From Salipiger sp. CCB-MM3 (GTDB taxonomy: Bacteria > Pseudomonadota > Alphaproteobacteria > Rhodobacterales > Rhodobacteraceae), in contig NZ_CP014596.1 of the NCBI RefSeq assembly GCF_001687105.1, forward strand, positions 310,001 to 374,000: DNA of 64,000 nt, read 5' to 3'. A program made the position numbers and the translations under genes. Positions 5,860-29,922 of the stretch are shown one piece after another. How positions within the stretch are numbered: position 1 is the first letter of the stretch; each line of letters begins with the position of its first letter. The notes under the pieces are model-generated. The model worked only from the letters and a program-made list of their open reading frames with translations, was not told where the DNA came from and searched no databases.

Positions 5860-5894
5860 GGGAGAAAACACTGGCCTGTCGCTTGGGAGTTTCG

Positions 5895-5907: not shown

Positions 5908-6005
5908 TGTGCGAGGGTCGAGCCGAGCCCGGGCCGCGCCCGGACCAAGCCATGGCGCAGTCGGGCACCGGCACGGCGGCGCCACAGCGGATGAGGGACG
6001 AGGCG

Positions 6006-7931: not shown

Positions 7932-8068
7932 GCGCCCTGTCTAAGCCGCGGGCGCGGGTGGGAAAAGGCCAAAAGCGCTGGGTCCGCGCGGCCAAATCTC
8001 TTCGAAGAGATTTGCAACTTCCTTCGAAGGAAGTTGCGCGGCCCCGACAAATCTCCGACTGTGCGCCT

Positions 8069-8434
8069 ATGGATCAGGACCTTCAAATCGGCGCACGGTT
8101 GATGCCGCTCTTCGAAAGCCGCCTCGGGCTCGGCAAGGGCAGTTTCGAGAAGCGCGCAAGCCGCGCGGCGCATCGCCTGCCGCGGTGGGCGCGGCGCGAT
8201 CTGGCACAGCTGCGCGCGGCGCAGGGCATGACCGGCCACCCCAAGCTCGCCAAACAGATCGATATGCAAGCGCTGCGCCGGGCCGAAACCCGCGTCGCCG
8301 CCCATCTCGAGGGCATCGACGCCAAGGCCCGCCGCCGCTACTGGCAGTTGGGCGTTCTGGGCGGGCTGATGTTCAACCTCGCCCTGCTCGCGGCGCTGCT
8401 TTTTGCGGGATATTACCTTCTGATGCGCAGCTGA
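8069..8434 (+). CDS. Small C-tail-anchored membrane protein of unknown function
   Basis: A 121-residue protein starting MDQDLQIGARLMPLFE. The first 90 residues are highly basic with many Arg and Ala and likely form helices; a single hydrophobic segment near the C-terminus (about 98-118, LGVLGGLMFNLALLAALLFAGYYLL) should anchor it in the membrane with the basic part in the cytoplasm. I do not recognise a named family. Its last 22 nt overlap, on the opposite strand, the end of the NUDIX gene. A longer in-frame start at 7958 exists but overlaps the promoter side of the hydrolase gene and is less likely. Confidence 0.65.
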   Translation: MDQDLQIGARLMPLFESRLGLGKGSFEKRASRAAHRLPRWARRDLAQLRAAQGMTGHPKLAKQIDMQALRRAETRVAAHLEGIDAKARRRYWQLGVLGGLMFNLALLAALLFAGYYLLMRS

Positions 8435-9147
8435 CGGCGCGGGCGGTCGCTTTCGGGCTGGTCCGGCGCGCGGCCCCGCAGGCGCAGGAAGAGGCTTTCC
8501 TCGTCATCATTGCGGAAGAACGGCACCGAGCGCGGCGGCTTGCGGTCTTCGACGCGGGCGGCGACCTCGGCCAGCACCACCTCGGTGATGAACGGCAGAT
8601 CGAAGCGGCGCACCTCGTCGAGCGGCACCCATTGCAGGTGCGACAGCTCATCCGAGGCGGCAGAGAAATCATCGGGGTCGCTGCGCAGCGCCTCGGCCTC
8701 GACAAGGAAGAAGCGCGCATCGAAACGGCGCGGACGGCCCGGCGGGGTGATCGCGCGGAATACGAACTGCAGCGCCGAGGCGTCGGGGCGGTGGCCGGTC
8801 TCGGCAAACCCTTCCCAGCCCTCCGGCGCAACCGGCCATTTGCCCGGCCAGCCAAGGATCTGCCCGGTCTCTTCCCAAAGCTCGCGGATGGCCGCCGCCG
8901 CCAGCGCATTGGCACGGCCCGCGGGCGCATCCTCGGCCAGCCGCGCGGCGCAGAGCGCGGGCAGCGGGCCAGCCAGCTTCACCTCGGCATCGACCTCGTC
9001 CACCGCGCCGCCGGGAAACACGAACTTGTTGGGCATGAAGGCCGCCGCGGCGCCGCGCTGGCCCATCAGGATGCTGGGACGGCTGTCCCGGTCGCGCAGC
9101 ACGATCACCGTGGATGCGTCGCGGATCGCTGTCTTGTCGCTGCTCAT
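8413..9147 (-). CDS. NUDIX hydrolase with interrupted Nudix box (NUDT19-like)
   Basis: A 244-residue protein. The Nudix signature is split: the first half is FVFPGGAVDE and the second half AAIRELWEETG, separated by about 35 residues rather than the usual few. Such an insertion is a mark of the NUDT19/RP2p coenzyme A diphosphatase group. The catalytic REXXEE helix is intact, so the enzyme should hydrolyse a nucleoside diphosphate linked to another group, possibly CoA or acyl-CoA. The ATG at 9147 follows a weak purine-rich site. It lies 53 nt downstream of the DUF983 gene and is probably in its operon. The 3' end overlaps the convergent small membrane gene by 22 bp. Confidence 0.86.
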   Translation of the reverse strand: MSSDKTAIRDASTVIVLRDRDSRPSILMGQRGAAAAFMPNKFVFPGGAVDEVDAEVKLAGPLPALCAARLAEDAPAGRANALAAAAIRELWEETGQILGWPGKWPVAPEGWEGFAETGHRPDASALQFVFRAITPPGRPRRFDARFFLVEAEALRSDPDDFSAASDELSHLQWVPLDEVRRFDLPFITEVVLAEVAARVEDRKPPRSVPFFRNDDEESLFLRLRGRAPDQPESDRPRRQLRIRR

Positions 9148-9200
9148 GCCTCTGCCCTGCCTTCCTGCGGTCTTATCGGCGGGGACGTCGTTGCGCGGGC

Positions 9201-9632
9201 TCAGGGCTCGCGCGCGAAACCATGCATCTCGCGCGCCCATTGGAAGCCCACGATCGCCCCCTTCAGTCGCGGCAGAAGGTAGAGGGAAAGCCCGATGCAG
9301 CCAATAAGGAAGATCGTGATCAGGATCAGCGGCTCAGGCCGCCACGTGGTGAACACCCAAAGCAGCGCCGGCGCCATGATGTGGCCGACGATGAGGATCG
9401 TCAGATAGGCCGGGCCGTCGTCGGCGCGGTGGTGATGCAGATCCTCGCGGCACACGGGGCAATGATCGCGCACCTTAAGATAGGAGCGCAGAATCGGCCC
9501 GTTGCCGCAACTCGGACAGCGCCGACGAAAGCCGCGCCAGACGGCGGGCCATGTCTCACGCTCGGCGCTCGCGGTAGCGGAGCCGGCGGGTGGTTTAGCC
9601 GGCATGCCGGTCTCCGGCGGCAAATGGGACAT
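9201..9632 (-). CDS. DUF983 membrane protein with zinc ribbon
   Basis: A 143-residue protein. The cytoplasmic N-terminal part has a treble-clef style zinc ribbon, CPSCGNG followed by CPVCRED, then two membrane segments (about 75-95 TILIVGHIMAPALLWVF and 100-120 LILITIFLIGCIGLSLYLL). This is the DUF983 family, common in alphaproteobacteria and of unknown function. The ATG at 9632 has GAGG eight nt upstream; longer in-frame starts (9653, 9671) lack a good site. It leads a two-gene unit with the NUDIX hydrolase. Confidence 0.85.
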   Translation of the reverse strand: MSHLPPETGMPAKPPAGSATASAERETWPAVWRGFRRRCPSCGNGPILRSYLKVRDHCPVCREDLHHHRADDGPAYLTILIVGHIMAPALLWVFTTWRPEPLILITIFLIGCIGLSLYLLPRLKGAIVGFQWAREMHGFAREP

Positions 9633-9899
9633 AGAAGGCACCTCGGTTTGCATCGCACAAAGGTGGCGCATGGGCCCTCACGTTTAAAGAGGACAGAGGC
9701 GCGCAGCGGCGTGTTGTCGCAAATGTCGGGCCGCAGATGCAGCTTTCCAAGGGTTTCGCAGGGTGGGTCGGGCTGGCGCGTTCGCGCGGCCCGATATGTG
9801 CCTAAGGGCGCCAGCGTTTAGCGCCGCGCCCTGAGGTCAGAGGTCGCAATGCATTGGTCGTTGAGCCCGCCCCGCCCCAGCCACCGCGCCTGCGGGCGA

Positions 9900-14988: not shown

Positions 14989-15756
14989 TTACGCGAGCAT
15001 CTGGCAATCGCCGCAGATCGACACCGCCTGCCCCGAGATGGTCCGCCCGCGCGGGCTGGCGAGGAACAGGATCTGGTCGGCGATCTGCTGCGGCTCGACG
15101 TATTCCTTGAGCGAGGTATAGGAAAACGCCGCCGCTTCGACCTCGTCGAAGCTTTTGCCAAGCCGCTGCGCCTTGGCCTCCAGAACCCGTCGCTGGCGGT
15201 CACCGGCGACAATGCCCGGCAGGATCGCATTTGCCCGGATCCCGCTGCCGCCCAGTTCGATCGACAGCGACTTGGTAAAGCCGATCACCCCCCATTTCGC
15301 CGCCGCATAGGGCGTCCGCAGCGCAAAGCCGACGCGCCCGGCCATGGACGACAGGTTGATGATCGAGGCATTGCCGCTTTCGCGCAGCGCCGGGACCGCG
15401 TGCCGCACGCAGTGGAACTGCGAACTGAGACAGACCGTCAGGCAACGCTCCCATTCCGCCGGATCGATCTCCTCCACCGGCCCCGTCGGCCCGGCGATCC
15501 CGGCGTTGTTGACCAGCACGTCGAGACCGCCAAGCTCGGCGATGGCCGCCTGCATGAAGCTCTCGATCTGCGCCGGGTCCGAGACGTCGCAGCGCTGGCG
15601 CCAGACCTCCTCCGGCAGCGCGGCAAGCGCCGCCTCGTCGATGTCGCAGGTGGCCACACGCGCGCCTTCGGCCAGAAACCCCTCGACGATGGCCCGCCCA
15701 ATACCCTGCGCGCCCGCGGTCACGATGACCCGCGCGCCTTCAAGTTCCAAATTCAC
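14989..15756 (-). CDS. Short-chain dehydrogenase/reductase
   Basis: A 255-residue classical SDR. The cofactor motif is TAGAQGIG (TGxxxGxG type), then NNAG, catalytic Ser in INLSSMAG, and YAAAK (Tyr and Lys of the active site). Asp at the end of beta-2 (TCDID) suggests NAD rather than NADP. The start is a GTG at 15756 with a perfect AGGAGGAGG seven nt upstream; this overlaps the GntR stop by 4 nt (GTGA). It probably oxidises a hydroxyl of a sugar or hydroxy acid controlled by the adjacent GntR; the substrate is not known. Confidence 0.9.
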   Translation of the reverse strand: MNLELEGARVIVTAGAQGIGRAIVEGFLAEGARVATCDIDEAALAALPEEVWRQRCDVSDPAQIESFMQAAIAELGGLDVLVNNAGIAGPTGPVEEIDPAEWERCLTVCLSSQFHCVRHAVPALRESGNASIINLSSMAGRVGFALRTPYAAAKWGVIGFTKSLSIELGGSGIRANAILPGIVAGDRQRRVLEAKAQRLGKSFDEVEAAAFSYTSLKEYVEPQQIADQILFLASPRGRTISGQAVSICGDCQMLA

Positions 15757-16490
15757 GGTAACAACCTCCTCCTGCTGTCTTCCAATTCCTCCTCCGCGCG
15801 CGCCCGGATCAGTTCCGAGGCCACGCGAATGTCTTCGGTCACCGCCAGCGCCGCCTCCTCGGCGTCGCGCGCCTCCAGCGCCTCGCACAGCTGCCGGTGG
15901 TGGCTGCGCGAATGGTGCGTGCGCGAGCGCGTCATCTCCTCTTCCAGCGGCAGGCTGCTCACCCCGATGTCGTAGTTGATGATCGGCCCGGCCTTGAGCC
16001 AGAGCATGCGGATCACATCCATAAGCACCGGCGATCCCGCCGCGCGATACAGCGCGAAATGCAGGTCCTTGTTGGCCGCCACCGGCTCGGCGGTGCCATA
16101 GGCGCTGTCGAGCAGATCCTCGAACCGCGCCGCCAGCGCCAGAATCTCTTCGATCTGCTCGGGCGAGGCGCGCTCTGCCGCCAGCCGCGCCGCCTGCCCT
16201 TCGGTGAGCATGCGCATCTCGGTCAGATCCTCGAACTCCGCGGCACTGATCAGCGGCACCTGCACCGCGCGCTTCGGCTCGACCAGCAGCGCGCCACTGG
16301 CGGCCAACCGACTCACCGCCTCGCGCACCGGCATCATCGACACATCCAGCCGCTCGGCCAGATCGCGCAGCGAAATGCGATCGCGCGGCTTGAGTTGACC
16401 CGAAAGCAGCATCTCGCACAGCGTTTCATGCACCTGATCGGCCAAGGTGCGCGGCCGTTGCTGCGGCGGATTCTCTGAAATTTGCCCCAT
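15753..16490 (-). CDS. GntR-family (FadR/FCD) transcriptional regulator
   Basis: About 245 residues. The N-terminal winged helix (about 15-75) reads LADQVHETLCEMLLSGQLKP with LAERLDVSMMPVREAVSRL, typical GntR. An all-helical FCD ligand domain follows with metal-binding-type His residues (KDLHFALYRAAG and THHSRSHHRQL). The start at 16490 is chosen for length and a GGGGA site; the frame runs open further upstream. It is the first gene of a two-gene operon with the SDR and probably binds the dyads at 16534-16550 and 16628-16640 upstream of itself. Confidence 0.9.
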   Translation of the reverse strand: MGQISENPPQQRPRTLADQVHETLCEMLLSGQLKPRDRISLRDLAERLDVSMMPVREAVSRLAASGALLVEPKRAVQVPLISAAEFEDLTEMRMLTEGQAARLAAERASPEQIEEILALAARFEDLLDSAYGTAEPVAANKDLHFALYRAAGSPVLMDVIRMLWLKAGPIINYDIGVSSLPLEEEMTRSRTHHSRSHHRQLCEALEARDAEEAALAVTEDIRVASELIRARAEEELEDSRRRLLP

Positions 16491-16533
16491 GTCCCCTAAC
16501 TCCCCGTTGACTCTTACCAAGCCCTTCTGCAAC

Positions 16534-16550
16534 TGTGATCTCAGATCACA
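16534..16550. promoter_or_regulatory. Palindromic operator candidate for GntR regulator
   Basis: TGTGATCT-C-AGATCACA is a perfect 17-nt palindrome 44 bp upstream of the gntR start. A second TGTGATCT half-site lies at 16633-16640, and AGATCACACCAGA (16543-16555) is the exact reverse complement of 16628-16640. Such paired dyads ahead of a GntR gene suggest autoregulation by DNA looping or two-site binding. Confidence 0.55.
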
Positions 16551-16627
16551 CCAGAACGGACAAGACCGCAACAGTAGATCGCGTGGCAAGGGAGGAAAGA
16601 CTGCCGCACGAACTCGGGTCACCAGAA

Positions 16628-16640
16628 TCTGGTGTGATCT
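16628..16640. promoter_or_regulatory. Second arm of the GntR-region inverted repeat
   Basis: TCTGGTGTGATCT pairs exactly with 16543-16555, 72 nt away. It contains TGTGATCT, the half-site of the palindrome at 16534-16550. The role as a regulator site is inferred from position. Confidence 0.45.
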
Positions 16641-16699
16641 CTTCAAAGACGCGCGGGAGAGGACATTGCCGCACCCTTACGCGGACTTGAGGCACATCC

Positions 16700-17061: not shown

Positions 17062-17931
17062 TCACGGCTTCCTGAACAGCCGCGTCAGTTCGAACAACTC
17101 GTCCAGCCGCTCGAACCGCTCGCGCGCATCGGGCCAGCGCTCTTCCTGCGCCGCGGCGACCAGCGCCTCGACCAGCGACAGCGTGGAAATGTTGGAATCC
17201 CATGCCGAGGGAATCTCGACCCAGCAATTGAACGCGTGATCGGCAACGCTGGAGATCGGGCTCGCCCATTGATCGGTGATCAGGATCACCTGCATGCCGC
17301 GCGCCCGCGCGATCTCGGCCAGCCGCAGAAGGTTCTCTTCATAGCGGCGGATGTCGAAGATCAGCAGCGTGTCGCCCTCGGTCATGTCCAGCACATAGTG
17401 CGGCCATGTGGCGGAAGAGGAGGTCAGATGCGTCACCCGCGCGCGGATCGCCTGAAAGTGGGTGAAGGCATATTCCGCCAGCGACCGGGTGATCCGCCCG
17501 CCAACCACGTAGAGCCGCCCCTCGGTCGAGGCCAGCCGCTTGGCCGCCGCATCGAACTGGGCGGCATCGATATTGGCGAAGGTCTGGCGCAGGTTCTGCG
17601 TCACCGCCTCGGCAAACCGGTTGAGCAGATGCGACTCGGGCGCCTCCGAGGCCCAGACCGCGCGGCGCGCCTCGGGGCCCGAGACCTTGGCCTGCAATTC
17701 CGACAGCAGCGCCGCATGGAAGGCCGGATAGCCCTTGAACCCCAGCTTCTGCACCATCCGCGCCACCGTCGGCGTCGAGACCCCGGCATTGGATGCCGCA
17801 GCGGTGATCGAGGCGATTCCCGCGCCGGGATAATCGTCGAGCAAGGCCTGCGCGAACTTGCGCTCCGAGTTGGTCAGATGCGCGTAATGCTCACGAATGA
17901 GCTGGCGCACGGTGCCTGTCGGGCTGGTCAA
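17062..17931 (-). CDS. MurR/RpiR-family transcriptional regulator
   Basis: About 289 residues from a TTG at 17931, chosen because GAGGAG lies six nt upstream; longer frames lack a better site. An N-terminal HTH_6 domain (about 5-80: LTNSERKFAQALLDDYP, NAGVSTPTVARMVQKLGF) is followed by a SIS domain (about 120-250: LYVVGGRITRSLAEYAFTHF, ITDQWASPISSVADHAF). SIS domains in this family sense phosphosugars or other small metabolites. It is divergent from the N-formylglutamate amidohydrolase-like gene and the TRAP catabolic operon and is the likely local regulator. Confidence 0.92.
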   Translation of the reverse strand: MTSPTGTVRQLIREHYAHLTNSERKFAQALLDDYPGAGIASITAAASNAGVSTPTVARMVQKLGFKGYPAFHAALLSELQAKVSGPEARRAVWASEAPESHLLNRFAEAVTQNLRQTFANIDAAQFDAAAKRLASTEGRLYVVGGRITRSLAEYAFTHFQAIRARVTHLTSSSATWPHYVLDMTEGDTLLIFDIRRYEENLLRLAEIARARGMQVILITDQWASPISSVADHAFNCWVEIPSAWDSNISTLSLVEALVAAAQEERWPDARERFERLDELFELTRLFRKP

Positions 17932-18041
17932 CGGCGGCTCCTCTTCGTCTGAGGTCCAAAATTTGAGCAGATATTCTTGGCACTTCACGCCCCCCCGGTG
18001 TTGCGGGAACCCGCTCTGAAAAAATATTGACGCATTACAAG

Positions 18042-18071
18042 CCTCGTGGAAAGGTTTTTCCAAACACGAGG
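18042..18071. promoter_or_regulatory. Inverted repeat at the start of the amidohydrolase-TRAP operon
   Basis: CCTCGTG (18042-18048) and CACGAGG (18065-18071) flank an inner GGAAA/TTTCC pair, giving a nested dyad of 30 bp. Its right arm overlaps the purine-rich ribosome site (18068-18075) before the GTG start at 18081. It may be an RpiR operator or an RNA hairpin that hides the ribosome site. Confidence 0.5.
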
Positions 18072-18080
18072 GGGACAGCC

Positions 18081-18854
18081 GTGCAGCAAGAGGACGCGAC
18101 CGCATTCGAGGTACGCAGGGCCATGGGAAAAGGCCCGGCCCTGTTCCTGTGCGAACACGCCTCCAACGCCATTCCCGCACGCTACGACGGGCTCGGCCTT
18201 TCCGAAGCCGCCCGGCAGAGCCACGCCGCATGGGACCCGGGCGCGCTCGCGCTTGCCGAGCGGATGGCCGAGGCGCTGGATGCGCCGCTGGTGGCAGGCG
18301 CGGTCTCGCGGCTGGTCTATGATCTCAACCGCCCGCCCGAGGTGCCCTCGGCAATGCCCGAAAAGACCGAGACCGTCGATGTGCCGGGCAACCGCGCGCT
18401 CGACGAGGCGGCCCGCGCGCAGCGTGCCCGCGACATCTACGATCCGTTCTGCGCCGCCGTGACCGGCGCCGTGGTCACCCGCAAGACGCTGGGCACGCCC
18501 TTTGCCCTTGTCACCGTGCACAGCTTCACGCCCACATGGTTCGGCATCCAGCGCGAGGTCGAGATCGGCATCCTGCATGACGAAGACAGCCGTCTCGCCG
18601 ATTACATGCTCGAAGAAGCGACCCGCCTGCCCGGTCGCCGCATCGCCCGAAACGATCCCTATGGCCCCGAGGACGGGGTGACCCATTCGCTGAAACTGCA
18701 CGGCATGGGGAATGATCTGCCGAACGTGATGATCGAGGTCCGCAACGACCTGCTGGCCGATGAGACCGGCATTGAGACCATCGCCGGCGAACTGCTGACC
18801 CTGCTGCGCCCAGCGCTGGCGGGGCTTGGACTTACGGAGACGAACAATGCCTGA
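18081..18854 (+). CDS. N-formylglutamate amidohydrolase-family enzyme
   Basis: A 257-residue member of the FGase family (PF05013 type). Recognisable blocks are ALFLCEHASNAIPARY, VSRLVYDLNRPPE, FALVTVHSFTPTW and VMIEVRNDLL, which hold the usual metal and substrate residues. HutG-type enzymes release formate and glutamate from N-formylglutamate. The GTG at 18081 follows GAGGGGGA by five nt; an ATG at 18123 is the alternative. It is the first gene of the TRAP operon and overlaps the small permease by 8 nt. With a gamma-glutamyl ligase-like gene downstream, it could instead cleave a gamma-glutamyl amide; that is inference. Confidence 0.85.
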   Translation: MQQEDATAFEVRRAMGKGPALFLCEHASNAIPARYDGLGLSEAARQSHAAWDPGALALAERMAEALDAPLVAGAVSRLVYDLNRPPEVPSAMPEKTETVDVPGNRALDEAARAQRARDIYDPFCAAVTGAVVTRKTLGTPFALVTVHSFTPTWFGIQREVEIGILHDEDSRLADYMLEEATRLPGRRIARNDPYGPEDGVTHSLKLHGMGNDLPNVMIEVRNDLLADETGIETIAGELLTLLRPALAGLGLTETNNA

Positions 18855-19443
18855 GGCCATGGTCTCTTATGTCCGCATCATCGACCGGATGAACCGCCTT
18901 ATCGGGCGGTTCGCCATGTATCTAATCTTTGTGCTGATCGGCGTGCTGCTCTGGTCGTCGGTGTCGAAGACCTTCTTCACCCCCACGCTTTGGACGCTGG
19001 AGACCGCGCAGTTCATCATGGTCGCCTATTACGTGCTGGGCGGGCCCTATTCGATCCAGATGGGCTCGAACGTGCGGATGGACTTCTTCTATGGCGACTG
19101 GTCGCCGCGCCGCAAGGCGATGGTCGATGTGATCACCATCTGGTTCCTGCTGTTCTACCTCGGCGTGCTGCTCTGGGGAGCGATCAGTTCCACCGCCTAT
19201 AGCTTTGGCTATTTCGGCACCGAGCCGTTCAAGTTCTTCGGCCAGCTGATCTGGGCCTTCGTCACCGGCGGGCCGGACGCGGCGGGAGAGCTCATGGGCT
19301 ATCTCGAGCGCAGCCCGAGCGCGTGGCGTCCCTACGTCTGGCCGGTGAAAGTCATCCTGTGCTTCGGGGTCACGCTGATGATCCTGCAATGCGTCGCCGA
19401 GTTCTTCCGCGACATCGCCCGCATCCGCGGAGAGGAAATCTGA
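18847..19443 (+). CDS. TRAP transporter small permease (DctQ-type)
   Basis: A 198-residue inner-membrane protein with four predicted membrane segments, in the DctQ layout (MYLIFVLIGVLLWSSV, TAQFIMVAYYVLGG, IWFLLFYLGVLLWGA, VILCFGVTLMILQCV). The N(V)RMDFFYGDWSPR block between segments 2 and 3 is characteristic. An extended loop (about 120-160) is longer than in minimal DctQ proteins and is seen in the larger Roseobacter versions. GGAG lies about seven nt ahead of the ATG. Its stop overlaps the large permease start (TGATG). Confidence 0.92.
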   Translation: MPEAMVSYVRIIDRMNRLIGRFAMYLIFVLIGVLLWSSVSKTFFTPTLWTLETAQFIMVAYYVLGGPYSIQMGSNVRMDFFYGDWSPRRKAMVDVITIWFLLFYLGVLLWGAISSTAYSFGYFGTEPFKFFGQLIWAFVTGGPDAAGELMGYLERSPSAWRPYVWPVKVILCFGVTLMILQCVAEFFRDIARIRGEEI

Positions 19444-20768
19444 TGTCGCAAGACCTGATCGCTATTGTCATGTTCTCGGGCATGCTGGGCCTTCTGCTGA
19501 CCGGCCAGCGCGTGTTCGGCGCCATCGGCTTTGTCGCCGTGCTGGCGGCGCTGTTCCTCTGGGGGGATCGTGGCGGCTTTGATCTGGGCTTTGCCGCCTC
19601 GATCAAGCTGATGAAATGGTATCCGCTGCTGACGCTGCCGATGTTCATCTTCATGGGCTATGTGCTGTCGGAATCGAAGATCGCCGATGACCTCTACAAG
19701 ATGTTCCACGTCTGGATGGGCGGGCTGCCCGGCGGTCTGGCGGTGGGCACCATCGGGCTGATGGTGCTGATCTCGGCGATGAACGGCCTTTCCGTGGCGG
19801 GCATGGCCATCGGCGCCACCATCGCCCTGCCCGAACTTCTGAAACGCGGCTACGACAAGCGCATGGTCACCGGGGTGATCCAAGCCGGGTCAAGTCTGGG
19901 CATCCTCGTGCCGCCCTCTGTGGTGCTGGTGCTCTACGCGATGATCGCGCGCCAGCCGGTGGGGCAACTGTGGCTGGCCGGGATCATTCCCGGGCTGGTG
20001 ATGGCCGCGGGCTTCGTCATCTACATCATCATCCGCTGCCGCCTGAATCCCGCGCTCGGACCGGTGCTGCCCAAAGCAGACCGCGATATCCCCATGTCGG
20101 AAAAGCTGCGCCTGCTGAGCGCGGGCCTGCTGCCGCTGATCATCTTCGCGGTGATGATGGTGCCCTTCGTCAACGGTTGGACCTCGCTTGTGGAAAGCTC
20201 GGCCATCGGTGCCATCGCCGCCTTCCTCGCCGCGGTGATCAAGGGCCGGATGACCCGCGAGGTCTTCGAGACCTCGGTGCGGCAGACACTGGGCGTGTCG
20301 TGCATGTTCATGTGGATCATTCTTGCCGCCCTCGCCTTCGGCGCGGTGTTCGACGGGCTGGGCGCGGTCAACGCCATCGAGACGCTGTTCACCGAAAAGC
20401 TGGGCCTCTCGCCGTGGATGATCCTCATCCTGATGCAGCTGAGCTTCATCGTCATGGGCACCTTCCTCGACGACACGGCAATGCTGGTGATCGTGGCGCC
20501 TCTCTATGTGCCGCTGGTGGGGGCGCTCGGTTTCGATCTGGTGTGGTACGGTGTGCTTTACACGATCACCTGCCAGATCGCCTATATGACACCGCCCTTC
20601 GGCTATAACCTCTTCCTGATGCGCGCCATGGCCCCGCCCGAGATCGGCCTGCGCGACATCTACACCTCGATCATCCCCTTCGTCGGTGTGATGACCGTGG
20701 TGCTTGCCATCATCATGATCTTCCCCGAGCTCGCCCTTTGGCTGCCGGACCTGGTTTACGACAAGTAA
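19443..20768 (+). CDS. TRAP transporter large permease (DctM-type)
   Basis: A 441-residue protein with about twelve hydrophobic segments and the DctM hallmarks GSSLGILVPPSVVLVLYA and MGTFLDDTAMLVIVAPL. It carries the sodium-coupled transport of the substrate delivered by the periplasmic binding protein encoded next. Full length. It overlaps the small permease by one nt. A short GC stem lies between this gene and the binding protein gene (20775-20795), which may help set their different expression. Confidence 0.95.
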   Translation: MSQDLIAIVMFSGMLGLLLTGQRVFGAIGFVAVLAALFLWGDRGGFDLGFAASIKLMKWYPLLTLPMFIFMGYVLSESKIADDLYKMFHVWMGGLPGGLAVGTIGLMVLISAMNGLSVAGMAIGATIALPELLKRGYDKRMVTGVIQAGSSLGILVPPSVVLVLYAMIARQPVGQLWLAGIIPGLVMAAGFVIYIIIRCRLNPALGPVLPKADRDIPMSEKLRLLSAGLLPLIIFAVMMVPFVNGWTSLVESSAIGAIAAFLAAVIKGRMTREVFETSVRQTLGVSCMFMWIILAALAFGAVFDGLGAVNAIETLFTEKLGLSPWMILILMQLSFIVMGTFLDDTAMLVIVAPLYVPLVGALGFDLVWYGVLYTITCQIAYMTPPFGYNLFLMRAMAPPEIGLRDIYTSIIPFVGVMTVVLAIIMIFPELALWLPDLVYDK

Positions 20769-20825
20769 AAAAGAGACCCCCGCAAAGAGGGGCGCATACT
20801 TCAACCATCCAACAGGAGAGACAAG

Positions 20826-21863
20826 ATGACCCTGACACGACGCAAGATCCTTAGCGGGGCCGCCCTCGCCGCTCCGGCGGCGCTGGCCGCGCCCTCCATC
20901 GGCCGCGCACAGGAACCGATCAAATGGCGCTTCCAGACCTACGCGGGCGCCGCCCTCGGCGAACAAGTGACCAAGCCGATCATCGACTACATCAACACCG
21001 CCGCACAGGGCGAGCTGGAGATCGAGCTCTACTACGCCGACCAGATCGTGCCCACCGGCGAGCTGTTCCAGGCGCTGCAGCGCGGCACCATCGACGCCGT
21101 GCACTCGGATGACGACTCCATGGCCTCGCCGACCCCGATGCGCGTCTTCGGCGGCTACTTCCCCTTTGCCACCAAGCACATCCTCGACGTGCCGGTGCTT
21201 TTCGAGCAGTACGGCCTCGCCGACATCTGGCGCGCCGAGTACGAGAAGGTCGGCGTCACGTGGCTCTCGGCCGCCGGTCAGGACCCGTGTAACTTCAACA
21301 CCAAGAAAGAGATCACCAGCCTTGCCGATCTCGACGGGCTGAAGCTCTACACCTTCCCCACCGCTGGCCGCTTCCTGAGCCAGTTCGGCGTGGTGCCGGT
21401 GAACATCCCCTATGAGGATGCCGAAGTTGCCGTGCAGACCGGCGAGCTTGACGGCATGGCGTGGTCGGGCATCACCGAAGACTACACCGTGGGCTGGGCG
21501 GAAGTGACCGACTACTTCCTCACCAACAACATCTCTGGCGCGTGGATCGGTTCGATCTTCGTTAACCAGCAGCGTTGGGCCGACCTGCCCGAGCACCTCA
21601 AGACGCTGGTGATGTCCGCGATCAAGGCCGCCGACACCTACCGCAACCAGTGGTACTGGGGCGGCGAAGCCAAGCTGCGCGCCACCGGCGACAAGCTGCA
21701 GCTGCGCTCGGTGCCGCCGGAGGAATGGGCCGAGGTCGAGAACGCCGCCAAGGAGTTCTGGAAAGAGATCGCGCAGGAAGGCGAAGTGCACGCCAAGGTC
21801 GTGTCGATCTTCGAAGAGTACAACGGCGTGATCAACCAAGCGGGCCCGCCCTACACCTTCTGA
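20826..21863 (+). CDS. TRAP transporter substrate-binding protein (DctP-type)
   Basis: A 345-residue periplasmic receptor. The N-terminus MTLTRRKILSGAALAAPAAL has a twin-arginine (TRRKIL) signal, so export is probably by Tat, with cleavage after GRAQ. The DctP fold is shown by KWRFQTYAG, QALQRGTIDAVHSD and the LDGLKLYTFPTAGRF strand where an Arg usually salt-bridges a carboxylate ligand. The ligand therefore probably has a carboxylate, but the true substrate is unknown. An AGGAG-type site precedes the ATG. It sits between its permeases and the ligase/dehydrogenase genes. Confidence 0.93.
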   Translation: MTLTRRKILSGAALAAPAALAAPSIGRAQEPIKWRFQTYAGAALGEQVTKPIIDYINTAAQGELEIELYYADQIVPTGELFQALQRGTIDAVHSDDDSMASPTPMRVFGGYFPFATKHILDVPVLFEQYGLADIWRAEYEKVGVTWLSAAGQDPCNFNTKKEITSLADLDGLKLYTFPTAGRFLSQFGVVPVNIPYEDAEVAVQTGELDGMAWSGITEDYTVGWAEVTDYFLTNNISGAWIGSIFVNQQRWADLPEHLKTLVMSAIKAADTYRNQWYWGGEAKLRATGDKLQLRSVPPEEWAEVENAAKEFWKEIAQEGEVHAKVVSIFEEYNGVINQAGPPYTF

Positions 21864-21979
21864 TCCACTTCCCTTACGACACCCGGCCTCCGCGCATCTT
21901 GCGCGGGGGCCAGCTCTGTAGAACCAAGAGACGACGATGCCGCGATGCCGTCGCGGCCTGCCCAGCAAGGAGCCCCGGA

Positions 21980-23344
21980 ATGGCTGCCCCAATGACTCTC
22001 GACCAACTCAAGGATGCCGCCAAGAGCGGTGAGATCGACACCGTGCTTGCCTGCATCATCGACATGCAGGGCCGTCTGCAGGGCAAGCGGTTCCACATCT
22101 CGAATTTCCTCGAGCAGGCGATCAACGAGACCCATTGCTGCAACTACCTGCTGGCGACAGACCTCGTGATGAGCACCCCCGAAGGCTTTGCTTCGACAAG
22201 CTGGGCCTCGGGCTACGGCGACTATGTGATGAAGCCCGATCTCGCGACGCTGCGCCCCGTGCCGTGGCTCGAGGGCACCGCGATGATCCTGTGCGACGTG
22301 ATGGATCACCACACCCACGCCCCGGCCTTCGAGTCGCCGCGCCAGATCCTGCAGGCGCAGATCGCCCGCGCCGAGGCCATGGGCCTCACTCCGATGATGG
22401 CGACCGAGCTGGAGTTCTTCCTCTACGCTCGCTCCTTCGACGAGATTCGCCACAGCGGTTGGCGCGATCTCGAGACGCTCTCGCCCTACAATCAGGATTA
22501 TTCCATCCAGCTCACCAGCCGCGAGGAATACGTGCTGCGGCCGATCCGCAACCATCTCTATGCCATGGGCGTGCCGGTGGAATGCACCAAGGGCGAGGCC
22601 GAGACCGGGCAGGAAGAGCTCAACATCCGCTATGCCGACGCGCTGGCCTGCGCCGATCACCACGCGCTGGCCAAACACGCGGTCAAAGAGATCGCCCACC
22701 AGCACGGCCATGCCGCGACCTTCATGTCGAAGTGGCAGGCCGACAAGGTCGGCAGCGCCGCGCATATCCACCAGTCGCTGTTCGCGGGCGATGACAACGC
22801 CTTCTACGACAAGGACGGCGCGCATGGCATGTCGCAGACCATGAAGCATTACGTCGCGGGCCTGCTGAAATACGCGCCCGACGTGACGCTGTTCATGGCG
22901 CCCTATATCAACAGCTACAAACGCTTTGCGCCCGGCACCTTCGCCCCCACCAAGACCGCGTGGAGCATCGACAACCGCACCGCCGGGTTCCGCCTCGTCG
23001 GCGAGGACAGCAAGGGCGTGCGCATCGAATGCCGCATCCCCGGCTCGGACATGAACCCCTATCTCGCCTGCGCCGCGCAGCTGGCGGCGGGCCTTGCGGG
23101 GATCGAAGAGACGCTCGAACTGCCCGACCCGGCACAGGGCGATATCTACGGCATGGACGATGTGCCCGACGTGCCCAGCACCCTGCGCGCCGCCATCCTC
23201 GCCTTTGGCGGCTCGAAGATGATGCGCGACGCCTTCGGTGATAAGGTGGTGGATCACTACGCCCATGCCGCCAACATCGAGCAGCAAGATTTCGACCGCG
23301 CCGTCACCGACTACGAGCTGGCGCGCGGCTTCGAGAGAGCGTGA
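21980..23344 (+). CDS. Glutamine synthetase-like gamma-glutamyl ligase
   Basis: A 454-residue protein with the glutamine synthetase fold: beta-grasp domain at about 15-110 and catalytic domain at about 115-450. Metal and ATP residues are in ATELEFFLY, KGEAETGQEELNI, HGHAATFMSKW, GSAAHIHQSL and NRTAGFRL. Inserts and divergence from GlnA, and the genomic setting, fit ligases such as PuuA, GlnA4 or IpuC, which join glutamate to an amine. The ATG at 21980 has AAGGAG seven nt upstream. Followed 10 nt later by an aldehyde dehydrogenase. Housekeeping GlnA is unlikely because no glnB is adjacent and the operon is catabolic. Confidence 0.88.
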   Translation: MAAPMTLDQLKDAAKSGEIDTVLACIIDMQGRLQGKRFHISNFLEQAINETHCCNYLLATDLVMSTPEGFASTSWASGYGDYVMKPDLATLRPVPWLEGTAMILCDVMDHHTHAPAFESPRQILQAQIARAEAMGLTPMMATELEFFLYARSFDEIRHSGWRDLETLSPYNQDYSIQLTSREEYVLRPIRNHLYAMGVPVECTKGEAETGQEELNIRYADALACADHHALAKHAVKEIAHQHGHAATFMSKWQADKVGSAAHIHQSLFAGDDNAFYDKDGAHGMSQTMKHYVAGLLKYAPDVTLFMAPYINSYKRFAPGTFAPTKTAWSIDNRTAGFRLVGEDSKGVRIECRIPGSDMNPYLACAAQLAAGLAGIEETLELPDPAQGDIYGMDDVPDVPSTLRAAILAFGGSKMMRDAFGDKVVDHYAHAANIEQQDFDRAVTDYELARGFERA

Positions 23345-23354
23345 AGAGGACACT

Positions 23355-24734
23355 ATGACAACGCTGAACTGCATTTCCCCCATCGACGGCTCGGTCTTTG
23401 CCTCGCGCGAGACCCTTTCGCTGGAGATGGCCCGCGAGGCCGCGGCATCGGCCCGCGCCGCGCAGGCCGCATGGGCTGCCCGCCCGCTGGCCGAGCGTAT
23501 CGAGCTGGTGATGAAGGGCGTCGCCGAGATCGGCGCGCAGAACGATCAGATCGTCCCCGAACTGGCGCAGATGATGGGCCGCCCGGTCCGCTACGGCGGC
23601 GAATTCGGCGGCTTCAACGAGCGCGCCTCGCATATGGCCGAGATCGCCGCAGGCGCATTGGCGGACATCGAGGTTGGCGAGGATGCCACCTTCAAGCGCT
23701 ACATCAAGCGCGTGCCGCATGGCGTGGTCTTCGTGGTCTCGCCGTGGAACTACCCCTATATGACCGCGATCAACACCGTGGCCCCGGCGCTCATCGCGGG
23801 CAACACCGTGGTTCTGAAGGGCGCGACGCAGACGCTGCTCGTGGGCGAGCGGCTTGCCAATGCCTTCCACAAGGCGGGCGTGCCCGAGGCGGTGTTCCAG
23901 AACCTCTATCTCGACCATGACACCACCTCGGCCCTCATCGCCGAAGGCGCCTTCAACTTCGTCAACTTCACCGGCTCGGTCGGCGGCGGCAAGGCCATCG
24001 AACGCGCTGCGGCGGGCACCTTCACCGGCCTCGGGCTGGAGCTTGGCGGCAAGGATCCGGGCTATGTGATGGAGGATGCGGATGTGGACGCGGCGGTCGA
24101 CACGCTGATCGACGGCGCCATGTTCAACTCCGGCCAGTGCTGCTGCGGGATCGAGCGGATCTACGTGCACGAAAGCCTCTTCGACGCCTTCGTCGAGAAG
24201 GCCGTGGCGGTAGTCAAAGGCTACAAGCTCGGCAACCCGCTCGACGAGGCGACCACCATCGGCCCGATGGCCAACGTGCGCTTCGCGGATGAGGTGCGCG
24301 CGCAGATCAAAGAGGCGCTGGAGATGGGCGCCAAGGCGCATATCGACACCCTCCCCGAGGACGATGGCGGCGCCTATCTGACGCCGCAGATCCTCACCAA
24401 TGTCACCCACGAGATGCGCGTCATGCGCGACGAGAGCTTCGGCCCGGTCGTGGGCATCATGCCCGTCAAGGACGACGCCGAGGCCATCGCCCTGATGAAC
24501 GACAGCCCCTTCGGCCTCACCGCCTCGCTCTGGACGCAGGACGTCGAGCGCGCGCAGGCCGTAGGCGATGCCATCGAAACCGGCACCATCTTCATGAACC
24601 GCGCCGATTACCTCGATCCGGGCCTCTGCTGGACCGGCTGCAAGCAGACCGGGCGCGGCGGCGGCCTGTCGGTCATCGGCTATCACAACCTCACCCGCCC
24701 CAAATCCTACCATCTCAAGAAGGTGACGAAATGA
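23355..24734 (+). CDS. Aldehyde dehydrogenase
   Basis: A 459-residue NAD(P)-dependent aldehyde dehydrogenase. The cofactor block is SPWNYPYMTAIN, the glycine motif FTGSVGGGKAIE, general base Glu in LELGGKDPGYV, and the nucleophile Cys lies in FNSGQCCCGIERI. It should convert an aldehyde made by the next gene, an iron alcohol dehydrogenase, to an acid. AGAGGA precedes the ATG by about five nt. It overlaps the alcohol dehydrogenase start by 4 nt (ATGA). The substrate may be a free or gamma-glutamylated amino aldehyde. Confidence 0.93.
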   Translation: MTTLNCISPIDGSVFASRETLSLEMAREAAASARAAQAAWAARPLAERIELVMKGVAEIGAQNDQIVPELAQMMGRPVRYGGEFGGFNERASHMAEIAAGALADIEVGEDATFKRYIKRVPHGVVFVVSPWNYPYMTAINTVAPALIAGNTVVLKGATQTLLVGERLANAFHKAGVPEAVFQNLYLDHDTTSALIAEGAFNFVNFTGSVGGGKAIERAAAGTFTGLGLELGGKDPGYVMEDADVDAAVDTLIDGAMFNSGQCCCGIERIYVHESLFDAFVEKAVAVVKGYKLGNPLDEATTIGPMANVRFADEVRAQIKEALEMGAKAHIDTLPEDDGGAYLTPQILTNVTHEMRVMRDESFGPVVGIMPVKDDAEAIALMNDSPFGLTASLWTQDVERAQAVGDAIETGTIFMNRADYLDPGLCWTGCKQTGRGGGLSVIGYHNLTRPKSYHLKKVTK

Positions 24735-25876
24735 GCCTCACCGCCAATTGGTCCTACCCCACCGCCATCAAGTTCGGCGCGGGCCGCATCGCGGAACTGC
24801 CCGCCGCCTGCGCGCAGTCTGGCATCACCAAGCCGCTGCTGGTCACCGACCGCGGCCTTGCTGCCCTGCCGGTCACCGAAAGCACCATCGCGGTGTTGGA
24901 AACCGCGGGGCTCGAATGCGGGCTTTTCGCCGACGTCGATCCCAACCCCAACGAGCGCAACCTTGCCGCGGGCGTCGAGGCCTATAACGCGGGCGGCTAT
25001 GACGGGGTGATCGCCTTCGGCGGCGGCTCCGGCCTCGACCTTGGCAAATGCGTGGCCTTCATGGCCGGGCAAAGCCGCCCGGTCTGGGATTTCGAGGATA
25101 TCGGCGACTGGTGGACCCGCGCCGACGCCGCCGCCATCGCCCCCATCGTCGCCGTGCCGACCACCGCGGGCACCGGCTCAGAGGTCGGGCGCGCGGGCGT
25201 GCTGACCAACTCCGAAACCCATGAGAAGAAGATCATCTTCCACCCCAAGATGCTTCCCGCCGTGGTGATCTGCGATCCCGAGCTGACCGTCGGCATGCCC
25301 AAGGCGATCACCGCCGGCACCGGGCTCGACGCTTTTGCTCATTGCGTCGAGGCCTTCTCCTCGCCGCACTACCATCCCATGTCGCAGGGCATCGCGCTCG
25401 AGGGCATGCGGCTGGTGATCGACTACCTGCCCCGCGCCTATGCCGATGGCACCGACATCGAGGCGCGCGCGCAGATGATGAGTGCCGCCGCCATGGGGGC
25501 CACCGCCTTCCAGAAGGGCCTCGGCGCGATCCACGCCATGAGCCATCCCATCGGCGCGCATTTCGGCACTCACCACGGCACCACCAACGCGGTCTGCATG
25601 CCTGCCGTGCTGAAGTTCAACGCGGATGCGATCCGCGAGCGCTTCGACAAGGCGGCGGGCTATCTCGGCATCGAGGGTGGCTTTGACGGGTTCTGCGCCT
25701 TCGTGGACGAACTTAACGACAGCCTCGGCGTGCCCAAGGGGCTGACCGCGCTCGGCGTGACCGAAGCGTCGATCCCCGAGCTGGTGAAAGGCGCGATCAA
25801 GGATCCCTCCTGCGGCGGCAACCCGATCGAGCTGACCGAAGAGAACCTCGAGGCGCTGTTCCGCGCGGCGATGTGA
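24731..25876 (+). CDS. Iron-containing alcohol dehydrogenase
   Basis: A 381-residue group III alcohol dehydrogenase. The NAD site is GGGSGLDLGK, then TTAGTGSEV, and the metal ligands fit Asp in TGLDAFAHCVEAF and His in HAMSHPIGAHFGTHHG. Members oxidise primary or secondary alcohols with NAD. It is the last gene of the operon that begins with the amidohydrolase-like gene and is followed by a hairpin at 25911-25937. Together with the upstream aldehyde dehydrogenase it would take a hydroxymethyl group to a carboxylate. Confidence 0.94.
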   Translation: MSLTANWSYPTAIKFGAGRIAELPAACAQSGITKPLLVTDRGLAALPVTESTIAVLETAGLECGLFADVDPNPNERNLAAGVEAYNAGGYDGVIAFGGGSGLDLGKCVAFMAGQSRPVWDFEDIGDWWTRADAAAIAPIVAVPTTAGTGSEVGRAGVLTNSETHEKKIIFHPKMLPAVVICDPELTVGMPKAITAGTGLDAFAHCVEAFSSPHYHPMSQGIALEGMRLVIDYLPRAYADGTDIEARAQMMSAAAMGATAFQKGLGAIHAMSHPIGAHFGTHHGTTNAVCMPAVLKFNADAIRERFDKAAGYLGIEGGFDGFCAFVDELNDSLGVPKGLTALGVTEASIPELVKGAIKDPSCGGNPIELTEENLEALFRAAM

Positions 25877-26121: not shown

Positions 26122-26241
26122 TCCGCATCGGTCCCACACGCGCCATAGCCCCCCTTGCACAAGCTGCCGCAACGGCGCCTTATGGCGCGCGATGACATCA
26201 CCGCCCCCAAGGGTGGCGTACACGGGCGCAGGGAGCCGAAG

Positions 26242-27483
26242 ATGAAGAAGACGGTGGCAGTGATCGGTGCGGGAATTGTCGGCGTCAGCACGGCGATTGC
26301 GTTGCTGCGCGACGGCCACGAGGTTGTGCTGATCGACCGCGAGGGCCCGGCCACGGGCACCAGCCACGGCAATGGCGGCGTGCTGGCGGCGGCGGCGGTG
26401 CTGCCGGTGCCCGGCCCCGGTCTCTGGGCCAAAGCCCCGAAAATGCTGCTCGATCCCGACCAGCCGCTGTTCCTGCGCTGGCCTTACCTGCCGAAGCTGC
26501 TGCCATGGCTGCGCCGCTACATGGGCGAGGCAAGCGCCGAGGCCGCGCTGCGCCGCGCCCATGCCATCGCGCCCCTCATCGGCGACAGCCTTGCCGACCA
26601 CCAAGCGCTCGCCACGGGCACCCCCGCCGAGAAATGGCTGGTCCCGGGCGATTACGTCTACGCCTACCCCGACCGCGCCGCTTTCGAAGCCGACGCCTTC
26701 ACCTGGCAGACCAAAAGCGCGCTCGGCTTTGCCCATGAGGTGCTCGAGAACGGCGCCTTCCAGCGCTACGACCCGGCGATGAGCGAAAGCTTCGCGCTGG
26801 GTGTGCGCCAGCCGGATCATGGCCGCATCACCGACCCGGGCGCCTATGTGAAGGCGCTGGCGGCCCATGCCCAAAGCCTCGGCGCGCGGCTGGTGATCGG
26901 TGAAGTGACGGATTTCGCTGAAGAGAACGGCGCACTGACCGGCCTGCGCATCGGCGGCGAGACCCTGCCCTGCGACGCCGCCGTCATCACCACCGGCGTC
27001 TGGTCCGGCCCGCTGGCCAAGCGTCTGGGCGTCGCGGCCCCGTTGGAAAGCGAGCGCGGCTATCACCTCGAACTCTACGAGCCCTCGATGATGCCCCGCG
27101 CCCCGGTGATGTTCGCCGCGCAGAAATTCGTCGCCACCCCGATGGAGGGCCGCTTGCGGCTGGCGGGCATCGTCGAGTTTGGCGGGCTCGACGCGCCGCC
27201 CTCGAAGGCGCCCTTCGAGCTGCTGCGCCGCTGCATCGCCAAGGCGATGCCCGAGCTGACGTGGAAGCATGAGGTCGAATGGATGGGCCACCGCCCCTCG
27301 GTCTCGGACTCGCTGCCGCTGATCGGCGCGGCGCCGGGCCTCAGGGGCGCGTTCTTTGGCTTCGGGCATGACCATGTGGGGCTGACCGCCGGACCCAAGA
27401 CCGGCCGCCTGCTGGCGCAACTGGTCGGCGCGCAGCGGCCCAATATCGACATCGCGCCCTTCTCGCCGGACCGTTTCGCGTGA
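26242..27483 (+). CDS. FAD-dependent amino acid oxidase/dehydrogenase (DadA-like)
   Basis: A 413-residue flavoprotein. The FAD-binding Rossmann motif is at the start, VAVIGAGIVGVSTAIALLRD, with the acidic strand end LIDRE; GTSHGNGG and the C-terminal GFGHDHVGLTAGPKTGRL are typical of DadA-type D-amino acid dehydrogenases. It may oxidise a D-amino acid or a related secondary amine. The ATG at 26242 is set by AGGGAG six nt upstream and by the Rossmann motif. It overlaps the next gene by 4 nt (GTGA). Confidence 0.87.
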   Translation: MKKTVAVIGAGIVGVSTAIALLRDGHEVVLIDREGPATGTSHGNGGVLAAAAVLPVPGPGLWAKAPKMLLDPDQPLFLRWPYLPKLLPWLRRYMGEASAEAALRRAHAIAPLIGDSLADHQALATGTPAEKWLVPGDYVYAYPDRAAFEADAFTWQTKSALGFAHEVLENGAFQRYDPAMSESFALGVRQPDHGRITDPGAYVKALAAHAQSLGARLVIGEVTDFAEENGALTGLRIGGETLPCDAAVITTGVWSGPLAKRLGVAAPLESERGYHLELYEPSMMPRAPVMFAAQKFVATPMEGRLRLAGIVEFGGLDAPPSKAPFELLRRCIAKAMPELTWKHEVEWMGHRPSVSDSLPLIGAAPGLRGAFFGFGHDHVGLTAGPKTGRLLAQLVGAQRPNIDIAPFSPDRFA

Positions 27484-28529
27484 GCCCACTGCCCTTTCTT
27501 GCCCGTCACGCGCGCTGGCTGATGCTGATCGGTCTGGCTTTCGGCATCGCCGTGCCGGAAATCGCGCATCTTGTGCGGCCTTGGCTGTCGGAACTGGTGG
27601 CGGTGATGCTCTTCACCGCCGCCCTGCGCATCGGCCCGCGCGCGGCGCTTGGCGCGGCGCGGCATCTGCGCGGCAACCTCGGCGCCACGCTCGCATTCCA
27701 GCTGATCGCGCCGCTGGCGCTGGTGGCGCTTATGGCGCCCTTCGGCCTGCTGGACAGCCCCGCCGCGCTGTCGGTGATCCTGATGCTCGCCGCCGCGCCG
27801 CTTGCCAGCAGCCCCAATCTGACGCTGATGGTCGGCGGTGATCCCGGCCCGGCGCTGCGGCTGCTGATCTTGGGAATGCTGGTGCTGCCGCTGACCACGC
27901 TGCCGGTCTTCGCCCTGCTGCCCGCCCTCGGCGGCGCGACGGGCATCCTCGGTACGGCGCTGAAACTGCTGGTGGTGATCCTGCTGGCCACCGGCATCGC
28001 CTTCGCCCTGCGTCCGTGGCTGCTGCCCGATCCCGGCCCCCGCGCCTTGGCACAGCTTGACGGGGCCTCGGCGCTGCTGATGACGGTGATCGTGCTGGCG
28101 CTGACCTCGGAAATCCGGCCCGCTCTGCTGGAGCGGCCCGGCGAGTTGCTGGCATGGCTGGCGCTAGCCTTCGTCGCCAACCTCGGGCCGCAGGTGCTGG
28201 TGGGCTGGGCGCTCGCCCGCACGGGCCGGCGCGAAGGGCTCGAGGCGCTGGCGATGATCGCCGGCAACCGCAACATCGGGCTGTTCCTCGTTGCCCTGCC
28301 CACCGGCGTCACCGACCCGCTGCTGCTGTTCATCGGCTGCTATCAGGTGCCGATGTTCCTGACGCCACTGCTGATGGCACCGCTCTACCGCCGCTTCGCC
28401 CGCATCGCGGCAACCCGCGCAGGGCTTGGCATCGCCGGTGAGCGCGGTATCACGGGCGCAGGAAACGGAGACCGCAATGCCCCAGACTGCAATTCCCCTG
28501 TCCGACATGCCGCTCAATGCCGCCGATGA
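27480..28529 (+). CDS. BASS-like (bile acid:sodium symporter fold) membrane transporter
   Basis: A 349-residue membrane protein with about nine to ten hydrophobic segments and little else until residue 310. Features such as ASSPNLTLMVGGDPG and AMIAGNRNIGLFLVALP fit the BASS/SBF-like fold, which moves organic anions with sodium. The start is GTG at 27480, overlapping the DadA-like stop. The last 17 codons overlap the start of the D-2-hydroxyacid dehydrogenase gene and read as low-complexity, so the functional protein may end earlier. It probably imports the substrate of the two flanking flavoenzymes. Confidence 0.7.
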   Translation: MSPLPFLARHARWLMLIGLAFGIAVPEIAHLVRPWLSELVAVMLFTAALRIGPRAALGAARHLRGNLGATLAFQLIAPLALVALMAPFGLLDSPAALSVILMLAAAPLASSPNLTLMVGGDPGPALRLLILGMLVLPLTTLPVFALLPALGGATGILGTALKLLVVILLATGIAFALRPWLLPDPGPRALAQLDGASALLMTVIVLALTSEIRPALLERPGELLAWLALAFVANLGPQVLVGWALARTGRREGLEALAMIAGNRNIGLFLVALPTGVTDPLLLFIGCYQVPMFLTPLLMAPLYRRFARIAATRAGLGIAGERGITGAGNGDRNAPDCNSPVRHAAQCRR

Positions 28530-29922
28530 CGGTTTTGCCGAAACCCTGAGCCGCGCGCTGCCCAAAGACACGCTGCGCCGCGCCGAGCCGTGCTACCTCG
28601 AAGAGCCGCGCGGGCGCTGGCAGGGGGTGTCGCGCTGGGTGGCGCTGCCGCGCACCGTCGAAGAGGTCTCGACCATCGTCCGCGCCTGCAACGCGGCGCG
28701 CGTCGGCGTGCTTCCCTATGGCGGCGGCACCGGGTTGGTGGGCGGGCAGATCGCCCCCGATGGCCCCGCGCCGCTGCTGATCTCGCTGGAGCGCATGTCG
28801 GCGGTGCGCGCCGTCTATCCGCAGGAAAACGTGCTGGTCGCCGAGGCGGGCGCGGTGCTGGCCGATGTGCAGAGCGCTGCGCAGGACGCCGGTCGGCTGT
28901 TCCCGCTCTCGCTCGCCTCAGAGGGCACCGCGCGCATCGGCGGGCTGCTCTCGACCAATGCCGGCGGGCTCAACGTGCTCCGCTACGGCAACGCCCGCGA
29001 GCAGGTGCTGGGGCTGGAGGCGGTGCTGCCCGACGGATCGATCTGGCACGGGTTGAAGCGGCTGCGCAAGGACAACACTGGATACGATCTGCGCGGGCTG
29101 CTGGTCGGCGCCGAGGGCACGCTGGGGGTGATCACCGCCGCCGCGCTGAAAGTATCTCCGATCCCCGCCAGCACCGGCACCGCGCTGCTGGCCGTCGAGA
29201 GCCCCGCCGCCGCGCTGGACCTGCTGGCCTTGGCCCGCCAGCAGCTTGGCGAGATGGTCAGCGCGTTTGAACTGATCGGGCGTATGAGCTTCGATTTCCT
29301 CGCCGAGGCCCTGCCGGGCCTGCGCCAGCCGTGGCCCGAGGCTCCGGCGTGGTGCGTTCTCGTCGATCTTGGGCTGGCGCAGGGCATGAACCCCGAGACG
29401 GCGCTCGAGACGCTCTTTGCCGCCGGGATGGAGGCGGGGCTGGTAAGCGACGGGCTGGTCGCCCAGTCGCAGGCGCAGGCGCAGCAGTTCTGGGACATCC
29501 GCGAGCGCATCCCCGAGGCCAACCGCCATATCGGCGCGATCGCCAGCCATGACGTCTCGCTGCCGCTGAGCGCCCTGCCCGAGTTCATCGAGACCGGGCT
29601 GGACCGGCTGGCGCGGCTTGGCGATTTTCGGGTCAACTGCTTTGGCCATCTCGGCGACGGCAACCTGCATTACAACGTCTTCCCACCGAAGGGCCGCAAG
29701 AAGCAGGAGTATGAAAGCCAGCGCGCCGACGTGCAGCGCTGCGTGCATGATCTGGTGCATGAGATGGGCGGCTCGGTCAGCGCCGAGCATGGCATCGGGC
29801 GGCTGAAGGTGCCCGATCTGGAGCGGTACTCCGACCCCGCGAAACTGGCGGCGATGCGGACGATCAAGGCCGCGCTCGACCCTGCGGGCATCATGAACCC
29901 CGGCGCCGTGCTGCGGGCTTAA
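28477..29922 (+). CDS. FAD-linked D-2-hydroxyacid dehydrogenase (GlcD/D2HGDH family)
   Basis: A 481-residue flavoprotein with an N-terminal PCMH-type FAD domain (VLPYGGGTGLVGGQ, EGTARIGGLLSTNAGG, LVGAEGTLGVIT) and a C-terminal FAD-oxidase domain (NCFGHLGDGNLHYNVFPP, GGSVSAEHGIGRLK). These blocks match D-2-hydroxyglutarate and D-lactate dehydrogenases. The ATG at 28477 has ACGGAG six nt upstream and lies inside the end of the transporter gene (53-bp overlap). It would reduce a 2-hydroxy acid to a 2-oxo acid equivalent, passing electrons onward. Confidence 0.9.
   Translation: MPQTAIPLSDMPLNAADDGFAETLSRALPKDTLRRAEPCYLEEPRGRWQGVSRWVALPRTVEEVSTIVRACNAARVGVLPYGGGTGLVGGQIAPDGPAPLLISLERMSAVRAVYPQENVLVAEAGAVLADVQSAAQDAGRLFPLSLASEGTARIGGLLSTNAGGLNVLRYGNAREQVLGLEAVLPDGSIWHGLKRLRKDNTGYDLRGLLVGAEGTLGVITAAALKVSPIPASTGTALLAVESPAAALDLLALARQQLGEMVSAFELIGRMSFDFLAEALPGLRQPWPEAPAWCVLVDLGLAQGMNPETALETLFAAGMEAGLVSDGLVAQSQAQAQQFWDIRERIPEANRHIGAIASHDVSLPLSALPEFIETGLDRLARLGDFRVNCFGHLGDGNLHYNVFPPKGRKKQEYESQRADVQRCVHDLVHEMGGSVSAEHGIGRLKVPDLERYSDPAKLAAMRTIKAALDPAGIMNPGAVLRA

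Follow-up and report, generated by a model that had tools for sequence, protein, structure and literature searches.

A catabolic pathway in which ethanolamine serves as a nitrogen source was reportedly presented as new in the abstract of Vetting et al. 2015. The closest described counterpart of the genes studied here is an operon of Phaeobacter sp. MED193 (MED193_10021-10056) which, in the portion of the source available, comprises RpiR, GGAH, EtoV, EtoW, EtoX, ETAGA, GAADDH, and GETADH (PMC10132767). We analysed a stretch of 64,000 nucleotides from Salipiger sp. CCB-MM3 (contig NZ_CP014596.1, positions 310,001 to 374,000; hereafter, the window) and found within, or at the edges of, its positions 17062-25876 a cluster of eight genes, which is a further instance, again in a marine-type alphaproteobacterium, of this previously described and well-conserved ethanolamine operon.

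As far as the same portion of that source goes, phosphorylethanolamine raised five MED193 proteins (GGAH, EtoX, ETAGA, GAADDH, and GETADH), EtoX was also up without phosphorus, and it bound ethanolamine with a dissociation constant (Kd) of 7.9 ± 1.9 µM; the gene of this tripartite ATP-independent periplasmic (TRAP) receptor for ethanolamine was abundant and expressed in the ocean, and the MED193 genes were called close to the ethanolamine pathway of Chromohalobacter salexigens and Agrobacterium, citing Vetting et al. 2015 (PMC10132767). Their work on Csal_0678 and its pathway is also cited in the accessible parts of PMC12410723 and PMC4646407. The GlnA4 route of Streptomyces coelicolor, as excerpts of its source describe it, likewise starts with a glutamine-synthetase-like enzyme that gamma-glutamylates ethanolamine; this comparison is by description, and the route is actinobacterial (PMC6529630).

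The cluster consists of a divergent RpiR regulator gene and seven tightly packed plus-strand genes, in the order FGase-family hydrolase, DctQ, DctM, DctP, glutamine-synthetase-like ligase, aldehyde dehydrogenase, and iron-containing alcohol dehydrogenase. Both the eight kinds of genes and their order match the MED193 operon, the comparison being by gene list and not by sequence (PMC10132767, in part). The original prediction had read this composition from the window, and Pfam confirmed it; its further remark that no such logic was known to include a TRAP transporter and a hydrolase of the FGase family proved wrong, as MED193 has EtoVWX and, in the FGase position, a gamma-glutamylglycine amidohydrolase (PMC10132767, same portion). 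The small permease DctQ, EtoV-like, lies at 18847..19443 (+; 59.9 bits, cut-off 28.3) and the large permease DctM, EtoW-like, at 19443..20768 (+; approximate start; 220.2 bits, cut-off 23.8). The GAADDH-like aldehyde dehydrogenase is found at 23355..24734 (+; approximate start; Aldedh 393.2 bits, cut-off 23), followed by the GETADH-like iron alcohol dehydrogenase at 24731..25876 (+; Fe-ADH 163.5 bits, cut-off 31.3; ADH_Fe_C 152.2 bits, cut-off 27). None of the eight proteins had an NCBIfam equivalog above the cut-off among the matches listed (for the aldehyde dehydrogenase, the best 25 of 44).

We estimate at roughly 0.93 the probability that the cluster is an ethanolamine gamma-glutamylation operon. 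The EtoVWX transporter would bring in ethanolamine, which the ligase would join to glutamate, using ATP, to give gamma-glutamylethanolamide. The iron alcohol dehydrogenase would then oxidise the hydroxyl to an aldehyde and the aldehyde dehydrogenase would convert this into gamma-glutamylglycine, from which the FGase-family hydrolase would release glycine and regenerate glutamate. For the window proteins, each enzymatic step and which oxidation comes first are inferred from sequence, as are the regulator sites described below. The scheme of import, gamma-glutamylation, oxidation of the hydroxyl to an acid, and amide hydrolysis, already outlined in the original prediction, agrees with all our findings and with the pathway in the available text of PMC10132767.

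The substrate is best approached through the EtoX-like receptor DctP (20826..21863, +; 99.6 bits, cut-off 23.4), which also passes one NCBIfam subfamily cut-off, TRAP_S1. Its best match in the PDB is Csal_0678 (4uab, 4xf5), with an E-value of 4.8e-141, whereas any other distinct sequence there reaches 2.7e-17 at best; the receptor is nearest to Csal_0678 and far apart from other TRAP receptors. In 4uab, Csal_0678 is complexed with ethanolamine, and Glu220 holds both the amine and the hydroxyl, according to the accessible part of PMC12410723. Glu218 of the window receptor sits in the stretch GITEDYTVGW, which is identical in Csal_0678, and it probably corresponds to Glu220: the aligned glutamate has chain index 217, and the equivalence relies on an inferred numbering offset of 3. 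Moreover, as read from the alignment, the receptor has a tyrosine where SmoM (2hzk) carries an arginine, at the position of the carboxylate-binding arginine of sugar-acid type TRAP receptors. This agrees with Csal_0678, which lacks the carboxylate-binding arginine of other TRAP receptors in the consulted part of PMC4646407. Ethanolamine, whose binding was demonstrated for relatives, is thus the likely substrate indicated by the receptor. The original prediction had left the choice open among several amines, and the receptor points to ethanolamine.

The same pathway logic could serve mainly a related amino alcohol (alaninol, 1-amino-2-propanol, or 3-aminopropanol), to which the chemistry of the two dehydrogenases would be suited; furthermore, PDB entry 4xf5 is reportedly the same receptor (Csal_0678) with 2-amino-1-propanol. 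Against this, the Phaeobacter receptor binds ethanolamine at a Kd of 7.9 µM and operon proteins rise on phosphorylethanolamine, as stated above (PMC10132767, in part). In addition, another genome of the family (G226) carries a 55%-identical receptor and, by Pfam, its two permease genes directly upstream of eutB and eutC (locus L079, G226:C104:6000-22000, 4521-9704), which gives independent support for ethanolamine. We therefore regard another main substrate as improbable.

The ETAGA-like ligase (PF00120; 21980..23344, +; approximate start; Gln-synt_C 334.8 bits, cut-off 24) matches PDB entry 5dm3, presumably the C. salexigens ligase, with an E-value of 8.1e-195, and its nearest named relatives are from Alloyangia pacifica (89%). 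The host genome (5.52 Mb) contains five genes of the glutamine synthetase family, and the ligase is 26% identical to the GlnA-type protein among them (L005). It retains the catalytic-domain motifs. The DGSS motif, which we take to be the ammonium-site motif of GlnA, is present in L005 and absent from 5/5 ETAGA rows of the alignment (the window ligase and four relatives). The absence of DGSS and the 26% identity disfavour a plain glutamine synthetase role.

The hydrolase (PF05013; 18081..18854, +; FGase 134.5 bits, cut-off 28.9), orthologue-like to the GGAH gamma-glutamylglycine amidohydrolase, has a GTG start preceded by GAGGGGG. In the PDB, it matches only Atu2144 (2odf; E = 4.3e-74) at E ≤ 0.01. 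Together with the matches of receptor and ligase, this likens proteins of the cluster to those of the C. salexigens and Agrobacterium pathway. Four FGase-family genes occur in the host genome, and another of them, L002, has a urocanase gene on one side and an aromatic-amino-acid lyase (histidase) gene on the other and thus already fills the role in histidine breakdown. The window FGase, whose neighbours are ethanolamine genes, has no hut linkage and no tblastn match to L002 at E ≤ 1e-3, and lies far from L002 in the tree, its exact placement being unsure because of long branches. A histidine/N-formylglutamate role was rejected on this gene context and distance; the original prediction had named it as the alternative that would overturn its scheme. 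Thus, N-formylglutamate hydrolysis in histidine breakdown coupled with a ligase making glutamine from ammonia, to which the family names PF05013 and PF00120 alone point, is barely credible given the place of L002, the divergence of the window FGase from it, and the ligase's distance from L005 and lack of DGSS.

The operon is well conserved. A scan of genome contigs with the ligase as query gave 67 loci, and completeness was counted by tblastn; a simple gene caller, which missed real genes, put the eight side by side in only 33/67 loci, so the tblastn count was preferred. The full set of eight, with order and strands as in the window, was present in 46/67 loci, which indicates a gene association beyond chance. 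Across these 46, identity to the window proteins was 61-99% for the receptor, 41-86% for the hydrolase, and 31-94% for RpiR.

Among the 21 incomplete loci, four (L028, L037, L045, and L063) are cut by a contig end and begin within the operon. L026 misses only the aldehyde dehydrogenase, L060 misses RpiR and FGase, and L070 misses FGase and both dehydrogenases. The ligase is retained with the iron alcohol dehydrogenase in L043 and L052, with both dehydrogenases in L051 and L061, and without its usual partners in L027, L031, L050, L071, and L072. Only FGase is absent from L067 and L069, where a flavoprotein gene directly follows the alcohol dehydrogenase gene (L067:12053-13315 and L069:12048-13310; Pfam assigns the one in L067 to the DAO family). 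This flavoprotein might stand in for the hydrolase or have no connection with it. FGase is kept and TRAP parts are absent in L029, L040, and L066. In L040 (6304-7983) and L052 (6207-7904), neither of which has a TRAP permease match, the gene immediately before the ligase encodes a PhoU-domain protein of the Na/Pi-cotransporter family, a possible alternative transporter. Phosphodiesterase-family, ALDH-like, and class-III aminotransferase genes also adjoin the ligase cluster in L040 (321-4377), a set that reminds us of phosphonate breakdown. In L029 (4652-7099), a DAO and GCV_T gene, dimethylglycine/sarcosine dehydrogenase-like, lies immediately upstream of the FGase-ligase-ALDH-FeADH genes; its product might channel methylated ethanolamines into this pathway.

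Several points weigh against reading the cluster as an ethanolamine operon. Other amino alcohols may also enter, if 4xf5 is indeed a 2-amino-1-propanol complex. The FGase gene is absent from some relatives (L067, L069, and L070; also L084), and the activities of the window proteins are predictions from their sequences. The host genome has, elsewhere, eutB (by Pfam) with an adjacent eutC-like gene (by reading; L083, C2:1111000-1129000, 7617-9784), another possible ethanolamine route. The EutBC route also consumes ethanolamine but has no gamma-glutamyl intermediates: EutBC is a cobamide-dependent lyase whose products are acetaldehyde and ammonia. Finally, the names GGAH, GAADDH, and GETADH rest on induction and position, not on enzyme assay, in the part of PMC10132767 available.

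Close to the host eutB and eutC-like genes are ABC-transporter-like genes and a kinase gene of the APH family. In a family survey of 248 genomes, a receptor match at E ≤ 1e-60 was found in 132, and EutB was above the Pfam cut-off in 17; EtoX occurred in 5/17 EutB genomes vs 127/231 others (Fisher p = 0.047), a difference that we do not rely on since related genomes are not independent.

The divergent regulator (17062..17988, -; approximate start; HTH_6 57.3 bits, cut-off 28.3; SIS 76.4 bits, cut-off 25) is separated from the hydrolase gene by a region with two conserved elements. We defined a type-1 set of 18 intergenic regions, window included, by an RpiR identity of 75% or more to the window protein, and compared it with 35 other regions with more distant RpiR. 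The block CTGAAAAAATATTGAC (18016..18031, +), with a TTGAC -35-like element, is a candidate regulator or promoter site, and the pattern TGNAAANNTATTGAC is found in 18/18 type-1 regions. The inverted repeat TGGAAA-GGTT-TTTCCA (18047..18062, +) is a candidate RpiR operator: its arms (TGGAAA-N4-TTTCCA) are exact in 17/18 type-1 regions, with one mismatch in L020. At ≤ 1 mismatch it is found in none of the 35 other regions and in 0.02% of single-base shuffles, and TGGAAAN4TTTCCA occurs once in the whole host genome (5.5 Mb), here. Both TGNAAANNTATTGAC and the repeat stand out from otherwise variable intergenic sequence in the type-1 regions. RpiR probably controls the operon via these conserved sites, to which it would bind. 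Type-1 RpiR and the footprint occur in Salipiger/Alloyangia/Roseovarius-like loci; a regulator subtype different from that of MED193, which is another species, is therefore likely.

For the 35 other regions, a putative type-2 operator, CTGWAA-N6-TTWCAG, was found in 28 at ≤ 2 mismatches vs 2.1% of shuffles. This is a lead: the sequences counted are also those in which the motif was picked out by eye, and the shuffles were of single bases only.

The receptor of G226 belongs to a second group of EtoX-type proteins. We found 16 full-length matches to the window receptor that are 54-57% identical to it, and examined six of their loci. One of them (G003) has the full eight-gene operon; in the other five, an FGGY kinase lies beside the TRAP set by Pfam, DeoR regulators are confirmed by Pfam in 4/5 (none was called in G138), and flavoprotein oxidoreductases are present in 5/5 by reading and in 2/5 by Pfam. 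G138 carries a GMC oxidoreductase. Ligase, aldehyde dehydrogenase, and iron alcohol dehydrogenase are present in G141, where the examined stretch gave no FGase match at E ≤ 1e-5. A literature search on ethanolamine ammonia-lyase with a TRAP transporter in Rhodobacter found no paper. Tentatively, EtoX-type TRAP importers could be interchangeable front ends, the second branch feeding EutBC (G226) or gamma-glutamyl genes (G141) as part of a unit that uses the glycerol and ethanolamine halves of glycerophosphoethanolamine; we give this idea clearly less than even odds.

As regards the neighbourhood in the window, a DAO-family flavoprotein gene downstream (26155-27483) was rejected as an operon member, since tblastn at E ≤ 1e-20 finds it in only 7/85 loci (L012-L014, L027, L031, L067, and L069, with identity down to 32-33% in L067 and L069). 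An FAD-linked oxidase gene (FAD_binding_4, FAD-oxidase_C) lies further downstream (28426-29922), and the two are not generally kept together with the operon. Upstream of the RpiR gene are a GntR/FCD regulator gene (15753-16646, -) and a short-chain dehydrogenase (14989-16419, -).

Beyond the known operon, the additions of this work are small: the RpiR-adjacent footprint and the swapping of downstream modules. Regarding annotation, the labels "glutamine synthetase" and "N-formylglutamate amidohydrolase" are here better read as ethanolamine genes, ethanolamine being a major headgroup of bacterial membrane lipids.

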